From Dyella sp. M7H15-1 (lineage in GTDB: Bacteria > Pseudomonadota > Gammaproteobacteria > Xanthomonadales > Rhodanobacteraceae), in contig NZ_CP035300.1 in assembly GCF_004114615.1 (NCBI RefSeq), positions 310,001-374,000 of the forward strand: a stretch of DNA of 64,000 nt, written 5' to 3'. The translations under genes were made by a program, and so were the position numbers. Shown here one piece after another: positions 1-52,269 of the stretch (position 1 is the first letter of the stretch; every line of letters begins with the position of its first letter). The notes beneath the pieces are model-generated. The model saw nothing but the letters and a program-made list of their open reading frames with translations. It searched no databases and was not told the origin of the DNA.

Positions 1-212
1 TCGTCCATGTTCACGTCGATGATTTGGGCGCCATTGGCAACCTGCTGGCGCGCGACGTCGATCGCTTCTTCGTAGCGCTCTTCTTTGATCAGCTTCTTGA
101 ATTGGGCTGAGCCGGTGACGTTGGTGCGCTCGCCGACGTTGACAAACAGCAGGTCGGGGGTGATGACCAGTGGTTCCAGGCCGGAGAGGCAGGTGTGGCG
201 TGAGGTGTTCAT
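1..212 (-). CDS. metH: Methionine synthase, second part (pterin-binding domain onward), N-terminal fragment
   Basis: Only the first 70 or so residues are inside the window; the gene runs off the left edge. The translation begins [17 protein letters not shown] and carries the [18 protein letters not shown] block, which is the hallmark start of the pterin-binding (methyl-tetrahydrofolate) domain of cobalamin-dependent methionine synthase. It starts inside the stop codon of the preceding gene (ATGA overlap), so the two halves of MetH are translationally coupled. Splitting MetH after the homocysteine domain is usual in Xanthomonadales. The missing part should hold the B12-binding and activation domains. 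Confidence 0.93.
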
Positions 213-1294
213 ACCGCATCTTTCTCTTTGGACGGCATGGCGCGAGGCGCGTATGGGCGCACCGCTTCCGCAATAGCTTTGATATGCGCGGGCGTCGTAC
301 CGCAACAGCCGCCCACCATATTGAGCAGCCCATCGCGCGCAAAACCGCCGATCACCGAGGCCATTTGCGCTGGTGTTTCATCGTATTCGCCAAAGGCATT
401 GGGTAAACCGGCGTTCGGATGTGTGCTGACAAAGCACTCAGCCACATTGGCCAGTGTCTGCAGATGTGGGCGCAGGTCGGCCGCGCCCAGCGCGCAATTC
501 AAGCCCACCGACAACGGACGGATATGTTTGATGGAGTAGTAGAACGCTTCGGCCGTCTGGCCAGACAGTGTGCGGCCGGAGCGATCGGTGATGGTGCCGG
601 AGATCATCACTGGCAGGCGGCGACCGCGTGCACGGAACAGTTCGCTCAGTGCGAACAGGGCCGCTTTGGCATTGAGCGTGTCGAAGATGGTCTCGACCAT
701 GATCATGTCGGCGCCACCATCGACCAGTCCGCAGGCCGCCTCGTTGTAGTTGCTGACCAACTCTTCGAAGGTGACGTTACGAAAGCCTGGATCATTGACG
801 TCCGGTGAAAGTGAAGCGGTGCGGCTGGTGGGGCCGAGGATGCCAATGACGAAGCGCGGCTTGGCCGGTGTTTTGGCGGTAAAGGCATCGCAGGCTGCGC
901 GCGCCAGCTTTGCACCTTCGCGATTTAATTCGTAGGCGAGATGTTCCAGGTGGTAATCCGCTTGACTGATACGCGTAGAGTTGAAGGTGTTGGTTTCGAC
1001 CAGGTCCGCGCCGGCTTCCAGATATGCCTCGTGCACATCGCGGATGATGTCCGGCTGGGTCAGCGTCAGCAGATCGTTGTTGCCTTTCAGGTCGCAAGCA
1101 CCGGGATGATCGTGATGGTGCATGTGGTCGCTGTCGCGTCCATCCACGAAACGCGCACCGCGAAAACCATCTTCGTCCAAGCGATGGCCTTGCAGCATAG
1201 TGCCCATGCCGCCGTCGAGGATCAGGATACGTTCGCGCAAAACGGCTTCGAGCGATGCAACACGGTCAGGATGGAGCCAGGAGAGGGTGCTCAT
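209..1294 (-). CDS. metH: Methionine synthase, homocysteine-binding domain (split MetH part 1)
   Basis: This 361-residue protein is the zinc-dependent homocysteine S-methyltransferase domain of MetH, which activates homocysteine for methyl transfer from methylcobalamin carried by the partner protein. The start DGGMGTMLQ (residues 27-35) is typical. The three zinc-ligand cysteines are visible as C267 (GLNCALG) and C330-C331 (GGCCGTT). A histidine-rich patch at residues 58-63 (HMHHHDH) is a small lineage insertion. It lies 11 bp after sahR and overlaps the second MetH gene by 4 bp, so the three genes form one operon for methionine regeneration. Confidence 0.95.
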
Positions 1295-12644: not shown

Positions 12645-12720
12645 GCCGGCATAGCTCAGTTGGTAGAGCAACCGCCTTGTAAGCGGTAGGTCGTCTGTTC
12701 GAGTCAGACTGTCGGCACCA
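12645..12720 (+). tRNA. tRNA-Thr (anticodon TGT)
   Basis: The 76-base sequence folds into a full cloverleaf: acceptor GCCGGCA/TGTCGGC, D-arm AGCTCAGTTGGTAGAGC, anticodon stem ACCGC/GCGGT with loop CTTGTAA (anticodon TGT at 12678-12680), T-arm GTTCGAGTC and encoded CCA. The 3' part from 12676 onward comes from the prophage attachment site but restores the same sequence, so the tRNA remains functional. Confidence 0.97.
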
Positions 12721-12722
12721 GT
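12676..12722 (+). repeat. attL core (47-bp direct repeat with attR)
   Basis: The 47 bases from the anticodon loop of tRNA-Thr through CCA plus GT are repeated exactly at 52223-52269. This is the common core left by site-specific integration; the integrase gene ends 68 bp away. Confidence 0.95.
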
Positions 12723-20158: not shown

Positions 20159-20200
20159 AAGTTACCTGTGAGGTATATTTGTGTCAATACCTAAAAGGTA
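20159..20200 (-). promoter_or_regulatory. Leftward early promoter PL with two repressor operators
   Basis: Two perfect operators of the form TACCT-N3-AGGTA lie at 20163-20175 (spacer GTG) and 20188-20200 (spacer AAA), centres 25 bp apart. On the minus strand a consensus -35 TTGACA (20182-20187) sits between them and, 17 bases on, a -10 TAACTT (20159-20164) overlaps the proximal operator. Repressor binding would block this promoter. The region 20100-20407 otherwise holds no gene. Confidence 0.75.
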
Positions 20201-20407
20201 AATTTATCTCGCCAAGTTGACCTGGCCATCAGCCCAACGGCTCGCCTACACGAACATGGTGTTGGCCTACACGAAGCTTGTATTGGCTCCGACATTTTGC
20301 GGTCGGTTCACATGCTAGAAACGCAATGACTTCGAGTGATCGCGAAGCATCGCAGCAGTTTTTGCGCGAAACAGTCACAACGGGGCCACCTTAAACAAGG
20401 AAGCACT

Positions 20408-21535
20408 ATGCGCGACGTACTAGCCTTCGTATGTATCTTGAGTGCCGTGGGCAGTATTGCTGCCGCACTGATAGGAGTTATCCGCCCTTCTGTTTTCGCC
20501 AAGAAGGGGGCGCCACCACCCGGACGCTTGCGGTTGCTCGGCGCTGGTGTCTCAGCGTTCGTCGGCTTTTCCATACTCGGCGGCTTTTTTATCGAAACAA
20601 CCGAGAAGGCTCAATCTGCTGGACCGCTACCTTCGCAGACGCCTACAAGTCAAAGCCTGCAGGCACAGGGGGCGTCCCATGCGTCGGACACTTCAACGCA
20701 AAAGCCGGCCGTACCCGCATACCGGCCCAATGCTGAGGCCTTGGCATTCTTGCAAGACGTCATCCGGCAAGACATCAATCAGTATGTCGCTGGCAAGAAG
20801 TCGCGCATCGACTGGAGTGAATTGTCGTCCATCCGCGCGTTCACTAGCGCTGGCGACCTGCTGGCGGAATACCATACGAATGAGGTCGCCGCCGATAACA
20901 ACTACATGGGGCAACGTATCGCTATCGCCGGGCGCATTGCTACGGTGAGCAAATCCGTGAGTGGAACGCCTTTTGTGGCAATGATTGCCGGTAATGGTGC
21001 TGTCGGTAACGGTGTTATTCGCGCCGATTTGTCTCCGATTACCGCCGCTCAAGCCGAGATGTTGAAGCGTGGTGGCACGGCAACCCTGGCTTGCATCGTT
21101 GCCGGTATGAATAAGGAAATGCTGGGAAACGAGTTGCCTGAATACCTGCATGTAGGCGAATGCCAATCGATGGACTGGATCGCGTCCGGGGTGCAGGAAA
21201 AGGCCGATAAGGCCATTGAGAGATGGTTCAAGTGGGGCGGCCACCTCGGCATCGACTACTACCCCACATCATTTCTTGGCAGGTCTGATGTGAACGATGC
21301 GGCATTGATGCGAGATGCTTACGTTATTCCAGCCGTGCTCGGAGTACCTGGCAGCTGCAGTGATGGGGCTACCCCGTCTTGCCTTAGTGCTTGGCTGCAA
21401 CAGGTGAAGCTGGTCGCAAAAGTCTCTGCCGAGAAGAAGGATCAGCTGCGCAGTGAAGCTAAGGTGGTCGCCGATTGGCTTCAACTCCCAGAGCTACCGG
21501 ATGCCATGGACGCAGTGCTCGCAGGTCAATCATGA
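20408..21535 (+). CDS. Membrane protein with OB-fold (tRNA_anti-like) domain, prophage cargo
   Basis: The start follows AAGGAAG (spacing 6) at MRDVLAFVCIL. The 375-residue protein has two transmembrane helices (about residues 2-24 and 44-62), a low-complexity linker, and a central region YHTNEVAADNNYMGQRIAIAG that matches the tRNA_anti-like OB-fold pattern. The C-terminal part is helical and unassigned. It lies in the cargo zone between the leftward operon and the repressor, so it is probably a lysogenic-conversion gene. Function unknown. Confidence 0.6.
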   Translation: MRDVLAFVCILSAVGSIAAALIGVIRPSVFAKKGAPPPGRLRLLGAGVSAFVGFSILGGFFIETTEKAQSAGPLPSQTPTSQSLQAQGASHASDTSTQKPAVPAYRPNAEALAFLQDVIRQDINQYVAGKKSRIDWSELSSIRAFTSAGDLLAEYHTNEVAADNNYMGQRIAIAGRIATVSKSVSGTPFVAMIAGNGAVGNGVIRADLSPITAAQAEMLKRGGTATLACIVAGMNKEMLGNELPEYLHVGECQSMDWIASGVQEKADKAIERWFKWGGHLGIDYYPTSFLGRSDVNDAALMRDAYVIPAVLGVPGSCSDGATPSCLSAWLQQVKLVAKVSAEKKDQLRSEAKVVADWLQLPELPDAMDAVLAGQS

Positions 21536-23660: not shown

Positions 23661-24377
23661 TTAAAACTTCCTGTAGCCTAGACGACCAATCACGCGTCCG
23701 CCGATGTGCAAATCGTTAAGGCTCTCCCCAGAGAGCACGAAATTTTCTTCGTAGGATCGGGTTCCCACAAAGCGCAGCTGTCCACCTCCCATATCCTGGA
23801 TGCGCCTGATGTGAGGAATGTCGCCAAGCTTGTACGCGTAAATGCCATCCCGTTCGAACTTGCGAACTGCCGCATTGACGAACACTAGGTCGTACTGCTC
23901 GATTTCCCCGGCCATGTTGTCTTCAGGGTTTATAAGAGCGCGAATGTCCCGAGACATCAAAGTGGGGTCGTGCTGCAAAAGTTGTAAGGGAATAGTGATG
24001 CTCCCTGTGCGTTGGGAATCGTAACCTTCGAGATAAGGTATCTGTACGTGCTGCGGAAGCGTGGTTGGCTGTTTCGTTGCAACGTACTCGGAGCTTGAGC
24101 GATCCGCTGCGGCGATGTACTCGGACTCCTGCCAATGCGGAGTATCTAGCCAGCCGGGTGGGTGGCCGAAGGCGCTATCGACTTCTCGGGCAATCTTGCT
24201 GCCGATGCGCTTTATGGGTCTTGCGCCGGCAAAGTGAGTTACCTGGGCCGGCTGCTTTTGCAGGCGGTCGGCAAACATGGCCATGCCACCGGAACGCTTG
24301 CCGGTGCCACCGGCTTCTTTATCCAGCGCCTGCACAAGAAGCCGCACATTTCGATGTCGAATGTCAAAGATATCCAT
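23661..24377 (-). CDS. CI-like repressor with S24 fold lacking the catalytic Ser and Lys
   Basis: The 238-residue protein has an N-terminal DNA-binding region (about residues 30-75) and a C-terminal S24/LexA-like domain. In the segment aligned with the usual GDSM-E motif the protein has EDNMAGEI, so the catalytic serine is N154; where the general-base lysine is expected (VKRLQ-like) it has HIRRIQ, R191. It should therefore repress but not cleave itself after RecA activation. It is divergent from the cro-like gene across operators of the TACCT-N3-AGGTA type. Confidence 0.82.
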   Translation of the reverse strand: MDIFDIRHRNVRLLVQALDKEAGGTGKRSGGMAMFADRLQKQPAQVTHFAGARPIKRIGSKIAREVDSAFGHPPGWLDTPHWQESEYIAAADRSSSEYVATKQPTTLPQHVQIPYLEGYDSQRTGSITIPLQLLQHDPTLMSRDIRALINPEDNMAGEIEQYDLVFVNAAVRKFERDGIYAYKLGDIPHIRRIQDMGGGQLRFVGTRSYEENFVLSGESLNDLHIGGRVIGRLGYRKF

Positions 24378-24397
24378 AAGGCAATTGTCCCCAGCTT

Positions 24398-24463
24398 TAC
24401 CTAAATGGTAAACGTCCGTTCAGGTAAATTACCCTTGCGATAAATATACCTCTCAGGTAAATT
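24398..24463 (+). promoter_or_regulatory. Repressor/cro intergenic operators and rightward promoter PR
   Basis: Operators TACCTAAATGGTA (24398-24410, one mismatch) and TACCTCTCAGGTA (24447-24459, perfect) flank a weaker half-matching site (24414-24426). A promoter TTGCGA (24435-24440), 17-base spacer, TAAATT (24458-24463) overlaps the last operator in the same geometry as PL. The expected transcription start falls on or next to the ATG at 24470, so the cro-like mRNA may be leaderless. Confidence 0.72.
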
Positions 24464-24469
24464 TTCGAC

Positions 24470-24751
24470 ATGGATGCCAAAACCTACTTTCTCCAAGCCG
24501 ATGGGAAGCTCTCGCGAAAGTGCGGGGAGCTGCGTCGGGTGGCCGGCCTGTGCAAGGTCACCCCGTATTACCTGTACATGGTGATCAGTGGCCACAAAAC
24601 CGCGAGCCCCGAACTCGCGGCCAACCTCGAACATGCAACCAAGGGGCAGGTGGACCGTCGTATCACCCTCCCTGACTTTCCGTGGGACCCACCTGAACAT
24701 CAAAAGGCAGGCCATGACGCTCCTGGTTCTACGTGTCAGCGGGCTGCCTAA
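24470..24751 (+). CDS. Cro/YdaS-like transcriptional regulator
   Basis: The 93-residue protein contains a helix-turn-helix (GLCKVTPYYLYMVISGHKTAS) followed by ELAANLEHATKGQVDRRITLPDF, the pattern of YdaS/Cro-type regulators that recognise a promoter opposite the repressor. It is the first gene transcribed rightward and would shift the switch to lytic growth. No ribosome-binding site is visible, in line with a leaderless transcript. Confidence 0.75.
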   Translation: MDAKTYFLQADGKLSRKCGELRRVAGLCKVTPYYLYMVISGHKTASPELAANLEHATKGQVDRRITLPDFPWDPPEHQKAGHDAPGSTCQRAA

Positions 24752-52222: not shown

Positions 52223-52269
52223 CTTGTAAGCGGTAGGTCGTCTGTTCGAGTCAGACTGTCGGCACCAGT
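52223..52269 (+). repeat. attR core (47-bp direct repeat, remnant 3' end of tRNA-Thr)
   Basis: The sequence is identical to 12676-12722. It is the original host 3' half of tRNA-Thr, now separated from its 5' half by the prophage; it is not a functional tRNA. Confidence 0.95.

Follow-up and report, generated by a model that had tools for sequence, protein, structure and literature searches.

The CI-like repressor of a prophage in Dyella sp. M7H15-1 keeps the S24 fold, appears to have lost the capacity for self-cleavage, and is encoded in a conserved cassette together with a membrane-bound MASE1 pseudokinase and a small, presumably exported protein. We consider it rather probable that these three genes constitute an SOS-independent switch, in which an envelope signal or the exported protein itself would act through the MASE1 pseudokinase on a cleavage-dead repressor. 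The stretch of DNA analysed (the window) comprises 64,000 nucleotides, and its relevant features are collected in Table 1.

Table 1. Features of the prophage and of the repressor cassette in the window
Feature	Position	Strand	Remarks
attL, 47-bp repeat, tRNA-Thr 3' end	12676..12722	.	
'OL' operator-like palindrome	20162..20176	.	upstream of leftward early operon
'OL' cluster, second palindrome	20187..20201	.	
Small exported protein ('SEC'), 144 aa	21663..22097	+	signal-peptide-like start; convergent, overlaps MASE1 3' end
MASE1 membrane protein with degenerate histidine-kinase domains, 521 aa	22068..23633	-	PF05231, 60.3 bits (cut-off 29.8)
CI-like repressor, 238 aa	23661..24377	-	ORF; alignment and predicted structure
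Repressor, N-terminal DNA-binding domain	residues about 1-93	-	
Repressor, linker	residues 87-105	-	low model confidence
Repressor, S24/LexA-type C-terminal domain without catalytic dyad	residues about 107-238	-	
Arg191 codon (AGG)	23805..23807	-	general-base Lys column (alignment and profile)
Asn154 codon (AAC)	23916..23918	-	nucleophile Ser column (alignment and profile)
'OR' operator-like palindrome TTACCTAAATGGTAA	24397..24411	.	between repressor and Cro-like gene
'OR' palindrome, weaker	24429-24443	.	same gap; 2 mismatches
'OR' palindrome, second	24446..24460	.	same gap; 1 mismatch
YdaS/Cro-like divergent gene	24470..24751	+	phrog_35; below Pfam cut-off
attR, identical 47-bp repeat	52223..52269	.	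prophage about 39.6 kb

The preliminary description had placed Asn and Arg at the positions of the catalytic serine and the general-base lysine, and had argued that SOS-driven autocleavage should therefore be impossible. The substitutions are borne out by a profile and by an alignment to canonical S24 repressors from this bacterial family, which define the catalytic columns: the nucleophile column holds Asn154 and the general-base column Arg191. Because the other lysines of the C-terminal domain (173, 183 and 237) all lie outside the catalytic column, alignment gives no alternative Ser-Lys dyad in this domain. Where canonical relatives show FAGMG, which contains the Ala-Gly cleavage site, the window repressor reads YDSQR, and no Ala-Gly or Cys-Gly pair ([AC]G) occurs 24-62 residues ahead of its Ser column. 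The model (mean pLDDT 88.7) has the C-terminal fold of LexA and CI, with matches to LexA (1jhf_B; Z 12.8, rmsd 2.7, 110 residues) and to the lambda-186 hybrid repressor (7jvt_D; Foldseek E 9e-8), although a profile of the domain had no match among PDB sequences. The prediction that RecA-type autocleavage cannot occur is strongly supported, as sequence and fold show neither of the two catalytic residues nor the scissile dipeptide. Like lambda and P22 CI and LexA, the protein combines a helix-turn-helix domain with an S24 C-terminal fold; unlike them, it lacks the serine, the lysine and the Ala-Gly site. Its DNA-binding domain resembles that of Rep, which we take to be the repressor of Salmonella phage SPC32H, in the Rep-Ant complex 5d50 (Z 10.8, rmsd 1.9, 75 residues, 27% identity). 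This match is limited to residues 1-86, and the window repressor possesses the S24 C-terminal domain in addition.

By its position the protein is probably the immunity repressor of the prophage and one arm of the three-gene cassette. The prophage looks intact from its gene content, which includes an integrase, a DNA methyltransferase, O-like and DnaB-like replication genes and an endolysin, as well as terminase, portal, capsid, sheath, tape measure and tail genes. A megablast search of its left 24 kb against phage records returned only short conserved pieces. The phage and plasmid matches of the repressor are distant CI proteins, mostly enterobacterial, and one IMG/VR contig of 39,085 bases carries an identical repressor (100% identity). 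Sites of the TTACCT-N4-GGTAA type with at most 2 mismatches number 18 against 3.4 expected, a count reached in none of 100 shuffles, near-palindromic sites being scored on both strands. The clusters at 24397-24460 and 20162-20201 are putative operators in an OR/OL layout, and operator-like clusters thus flank the immunity region on both sides, as in lambda and P22. The exported-protein gene has no operator-like site in front of it.

As the source of induction the preliminary description had suggested another factor, such as an antirepressor or the neighbouring MASE1 sensor. The first of these found no support: a PHROGs scan of 27 prophage ORFs gave no antirepressor match (small unknown ORFs remain), no LexA box pattern occurs in the prophage, and PADLOC returned nothing for seven proteins. 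The MASE1 sensor fared better, being linked to the repressor at all 30 loci and co-inherited with its C-terminal domain, as set out below. Two neighbouring genes may be mentioned here. In Dyella japonica an Ant-type antirepressor gene (L080:8223-8972) adjoins the cassette, so that one prophage may hold two possible induction routes. In the window, the product of a gene at 20336-21535, upstream of the exported-protein gene and on the same strand, contains a tRNA_anti-like (OB) domain and weakly matches the superinfection-exclusion-like family phrog_8545.

The loss of the dyad is a family trait, a point that the preliminary description had missed. Searches over the family, the order, the class and viral contigs yielded, once duplicates were taken out, 70 distinct C-terminal domains, which split by profile score into 30 at 73 bits or more and 40 at 67 bits or less. 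Although this gap was noticed after scoring, clade support was computed separately, and in a tree from which the two catalytic columns were left out, a branch with support 99/97 separates the 30 high-scoring domains from the rest. The dyad is intact in 2 of the 30 (L005 and L014) versus 34 of the 40 outside the clade, the latter being a non-random sample of the best-scoring stored loci with about 1.5 kb of flank each. If loss is irreversible, at least five losses are needed among the clade's 30 members, five among 19 divergent controls, and none among the other 21. A second relative in the Dyella sp. M7H15-1 genome (G000:C1:5629-6141) carries Val and Arg at the dyad positions; given this copy and the 28 clade members without an intact dyad, the missing residues of the window repressor are not a chance event. 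Outside the order, nothing above 54 bits to the C-terminal domain was found in 369 genomes of the class apart from Dyella sp. M7H15-1, and the L015 repressor had no relative among viral contigs.

The second copy belongs to another complete cassette (L078:3555-6435, that is G000:C1:3555-6435) accompanied by YdaS-like Cro and DUF1376 genes. This locus would represent another prophage or a remnant in the same cell, and its sensor and exported protein are different alleles from those in the window. In genus g22 (L007-L012 and L025), larger proteins end in a fused DNA-binding domain that is 40-51% identical to residues 1-86 of the repressor. By eye the fusion partners look PAS-like, which would make them a second kind of sensor joined to this DNA-binding domain.

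What sets the clade apart is its neighbour. A MASE1 gene lies directly 3' of the repressor gene on the same strand in 30 of 30 clade members versus 0 of 40 other S24 domains; the first test counted 29, and in the thirtieth (L161) the gene was masked by a long ORF start. In the window the two genes are separated by 27 nt. The link between MASE1 and repressor has a single origin, and hence the contrast of 30 against 0 does not represent 30 independent events; when MASE1 linkage was set against dyad loss in an independent-pairs test, there was a single pair and hence no power. Among all MASE1 matches in 233 genomes of the family, the four genes of the closest cassettes ranked as the top four.

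On its sequence the window MASE1 protein is a pseudokinase, as it keeps the kinase fold and has lost the H box and the ATP-binding motifs. The phospho-acceptor His is kept in none of 32 repressor-linked MASE1 rows, some of which are near-identical, and is present in UhpB and in L093, a kinase of Dyella sp. M7H15-1. The window protein reads QHRHG in this region, with His residues adjoining the H-box position. The N, G1 and G2 motifs for ATP binding are absent from it and from the other repressor-linked rows, with the exception of a G2-like GLG remnant in the L081 protein. The model (pLDDT 90.1) contains a kinase catalytic-domain fold at residues 377-517, which align to VraS (4gt8; Z 14.3, rmsd 2.5, 122 residues), and the kinase part also matches DesK (3ehh; Z 14.0). 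No response-regulator gene is adjacent, the neighbours being the repressor and exported-protein genes. Against a viral structure library the model gave weak matches, of which the named ones were mostly generic histidine kinases, and the MASE1 proteins of the window and of L085 had no match in phage records. The MASE1 domain occurs in quorum-sensing kinases (PMC8895600), and a biofilm defect of a Xanthomonas MASE1 mutant has been described (PMC3130047).

The third gene, which the preliminary description did not mention, encodes a protein whose export is predicted from its signal-peptide-like start. Its family shares a motif of approximately GLG..WP...D(V/L)...VY.F..(D/N)G..Y.Q.ND. The gene is present in 29 of the 30 cassettes, convergent in every one. 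Among 31 host MASE1 loci, which were among the best-scoring of the 233-genome search together with the Dyella sp. M7H15-1 loci, 26 also have an exported-protein gene. Most of these pairs have no repressor, so that the output of MASE1 must be different there. All five exported-protein genes of Dyella sp. M7H15-1 stand beside its five pseudo-MASE1 genes, and the only motif-bearing MASE1 kinase of this genome has none. A sample of 184 other genomes of the class yielded no member, none of the matches in Pfam, NCBIfam or PDB was convincing, and phage records gave no match.

Several members of this family deserve a separate remark. The exported protein of the Dyella japonica cassette (L080:11694-12380) ends in a duplicated C-x-D-P-x-E-C motif; a single copy is common in host exported proteins and absent in members from genus g374. 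Of the alignments used, A9 has sixteen rows and leaves out L164 and L120. In the one cassette lacking a recognisable exported-protein gene (L175; G911:C2, around 608740-610992), the gene of another signal-peptide-like protein comes next, on the same strand.

Comparison of distance matrices suggests that the C-terminal domain and MASE1 travel together, and that the DNA-binding domain has been swapped between loci. In 22 non-redundant cassettes, C-terminal-domain distances correlate with those of the membrane part (rho 0.85) and of the kinase part (rho 0.82) of MASE1, whereas the DNA-binding and C-terminal domains of the repressor give rho 0.54 (22 loci) and a partial correlation of 0.03. As shared linkage alone would raise all of these values, it is the contrast between them that informs; the correlations of the DNA-binding domains, which are short, could be depressed by poor alignment. 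Five cassettes that were compared differ, too, in the palindromes next to the repressor gene.

The repressor shows dN/dS ratios of 0.02-0.23 across 11 close pairs; the ranges for MASE1 and the exported protein are 0.06-0.39 and 0.14-0.36, with one exported-protein value not computable. These low values imply that all three genes are under purifying selection and that cleavage-dead repressors are maintained. Against this background one stretch varies strongly. In L159 and L166 the repressors are 99% identical, the MASE1 kinase parts 87% and the sensor cores 35%. DNA identity falls from above 90% to 42-60% at the sensor core and then recovers, and the differences between the exported proteins are confined to the N-terminal part. 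Across six close cassette pairs, sensor-core divergence exceeds kinase-part divergence by a mean of 0.21 versus 0.09 in 63 host pairs, of which those with L122 have a truncated exported-protein row. With six pairs only, the correlations give no clear picture: sensor-core divergence has r 0.52 with that of the exported N-part and r -0.75 with that of the exported core, and the MASE1 kinase part gives r 0.58 with the exported N-part. Co-variation of signal and sensor with a constant output part is clear in L159/L166 and weaker in the other five close pairs; mainly on the strength of that one pair, the variation looks like pheromone-receptor polymorphism.

Taken as a switch, the cassette could operate as follows. 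MASE1 would sense a signal in the envelope, for which the exported protein or its cargo is the likeliest candidate, and the cytoplasmic pseudokinase domain of MASE1 would contact the C-terminal domain of the repressor, which in the CI/LexA fold is the dimerisation domain, so as to hold or release the repressor. Induction would then be a matter of protein-protein contact at the membrane, in place of RecA-stimulated cleavage. The direction we favour is that the signal leads to sequestration of the repressor at the membrane and frees the operators, since the sensor gene shares the transcription unit of the repressor and should be made in the lysogen. Alternatively, the sign may be the opposite, with MASE1 propping up repression until the signal arrives. 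Several observations count against such a switch: L005 and L014 keep both Ser and Lys, the Dyella japonica cassette adjoins an Ant-type gene, L175 has no recognisable exported-protein gene, most host pairs of MASE1 and exported protein stand without a repressor, the exported-protein gene has no operator-like site before it, the MASE1-repressor link arose once, and the co-variation of sensor core and exported protein is drawn from six close pairs.

An alternative that we regard as unlikely is that the MASE1 and exported proteins are of benefit to the lysogen, by superinfection exclusion or lysogenic conversion, and merely ride in the repressor operon, while an unrecognised antirepressor inactivates the repressor. 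A position behind cI is classic for lysogen-benefit genes, as with the rex genes of lambda, and the MASE1 gene occupies just that position in the cI operon. The weak superinfection-exclusion-like match of the gene at 20336-21535, near the exported-protein gene, fits this idea, as does the Ant-type gene in Dyella japonica, and non-cleavable repressors with antirepressors are known (PMC3121763). However, the MASE1 linkage is restricted to one clade of C-terminal domains, it outlasts exchange of the DNA-binding domain, and the trio is also found at chromosomal, non-prophage sites by CsrA-type, UvrC or sulfate-assimilation genes. The antirepressor itself found no candidate among the 27 ORFs scanned, and there was no LexA box and no PADLOC match.

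It is improbable, in our judgement, that the MASE1 and exported proteins stabilise or strengthen the repressor, as a co-repressor or quality sensor, with induction following from dilution or host proteolysis: the shared operon would suit an accessory to repression equally well, but a hypervariable sensor core and exported protein beside a constant repressor would by itself be left unexplained. Very improbable is a decayed, constitutively active remnant that locks the prophage in a non-inducible state, for although the loss of both catalytic residues would by that alone produce a non-inducible repressor, the att sites and the integrase, replication, packaging and tail genes are intact, dyad-less relatives are under strong purifying selection, and the loss is common to 28 of 30 relatives.

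The proposed membrane switch can be set beside several known systems. Gifsy repressors, which are short, lack a C-terminal domain and are not cleaved, are inactivated by an antirepressor with a LexA-controlled gene (PMC3121763), and the N15 repressor is non-proteolytic (PMC10432266). The window repressor would share with the Gifsy, 186 and N15 repressors the absence of cleavage and the need for another protein in induction (PMC3121763 and PMC10432266), but it has as its candidate partner a pseudokinase that is a polytopic membrane protein, and not an antirepressor. In the TF-smORF modules of polylysogens, cI is cleavable and is inactivated by a small protein whose synthesis is switched on by a transcription factor (Silpe et al., 2023; PMC10432266). 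These would have phage-encoded, SOS-independent induction in common with the cassette; they include no membrane receptor as far as the main text goes, where the word 'membrane' is absent (PMC10432266). UhpB of the Escherichia coli UhpB-UhpC-UhpA system has a MASE1 domain and a histidine-kinase region as the window protein does, but it also has H, N and G boxes and a response regulator, all of which are missing from the cassette, where an S24-like repressor is the neighbour instead. In Agr and ComX-ComP, a small exported product is encoded beside a membrane receptor, and the sensor is polymorphic while the output part is constant. The cassettes repeat the first arrangement wherever the exported-protein gene is present (export being predicted); they differ in that no processing gene was seen, the product is a protein of about 120 residues, and no kinase activity is expected. 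Arbitrium likewise controls lysogeny, and its receptor is cytoplasmic.

Full-text literature, with subscription papers and preprints outside the search, gave no report of MASE1 proteins in prophage control and no account of a module of this kind. Because the module passes neither as a self-cleaving S24 repressor nor as a two-component kinase, we rate it as new in kind, with a function that is putative and read from sequence.

If the switch operates as proposed, a lysogeny repressor would be wired to a membrane receptor and not to RecA, and the prophage would listen to the envelope or to its neighbours. It would account for the induction of uncleavable repressors where no classical antirepressor exists, assign a role to a family of MASE1 pseudokinases and to a so far nameless family of exported proteins, and imply that an S24 domain can be converted from a self-protease into a docking module. 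Since the DNA-binding domain is freely swapped, the claim is readily testable with a reporter.

The cassette is not confined to prophages. Genus g374 holds 17 of the 30 cassettes, and those examined are chromosomal, surrounded by UvrC, sulfate-assimilation protein, P-type ATPase or RHS genes; L175, from a different genus, is also chromosomal by its neighbours. CsrA-domain genes stand beside the g374 regulator, over the Pfam CsrA cut-off in L158, L160, L162, L169 and L173 and below it in L166, with further cases detected by a home-made profile. In this genus the cassette would govern CsrA-type genes and not lytic genes. A broader scheme, which we put forward only tentatively, is that of a dead kinase talking to a dead protease: an exported, allele-specific signal would reach an S24-derived transcription factor through the MASE1 core, prophages using it to sense lysogen density or kinship and bacteria to steer CsrA-type regulators.

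Two minor observations may be added. Residues 6-179 of the MASE1 protein align to S-components of ECF transporters for thiamin (ThiT, 4tkr; Z 13.1) and biotin (Z 11.3), a likeness of the model that may hint at small-molecule binding or may reflect a common helical arrangement. The CsrA-type proteins adjoining the g374 cassettes L158, L160, L162, L164, L166, L169 and L173 are unusual in their length of 130-220 residues, and some g374 CsrA-type proteins have two CsrA matches or are encoded by tandem gene pairs.
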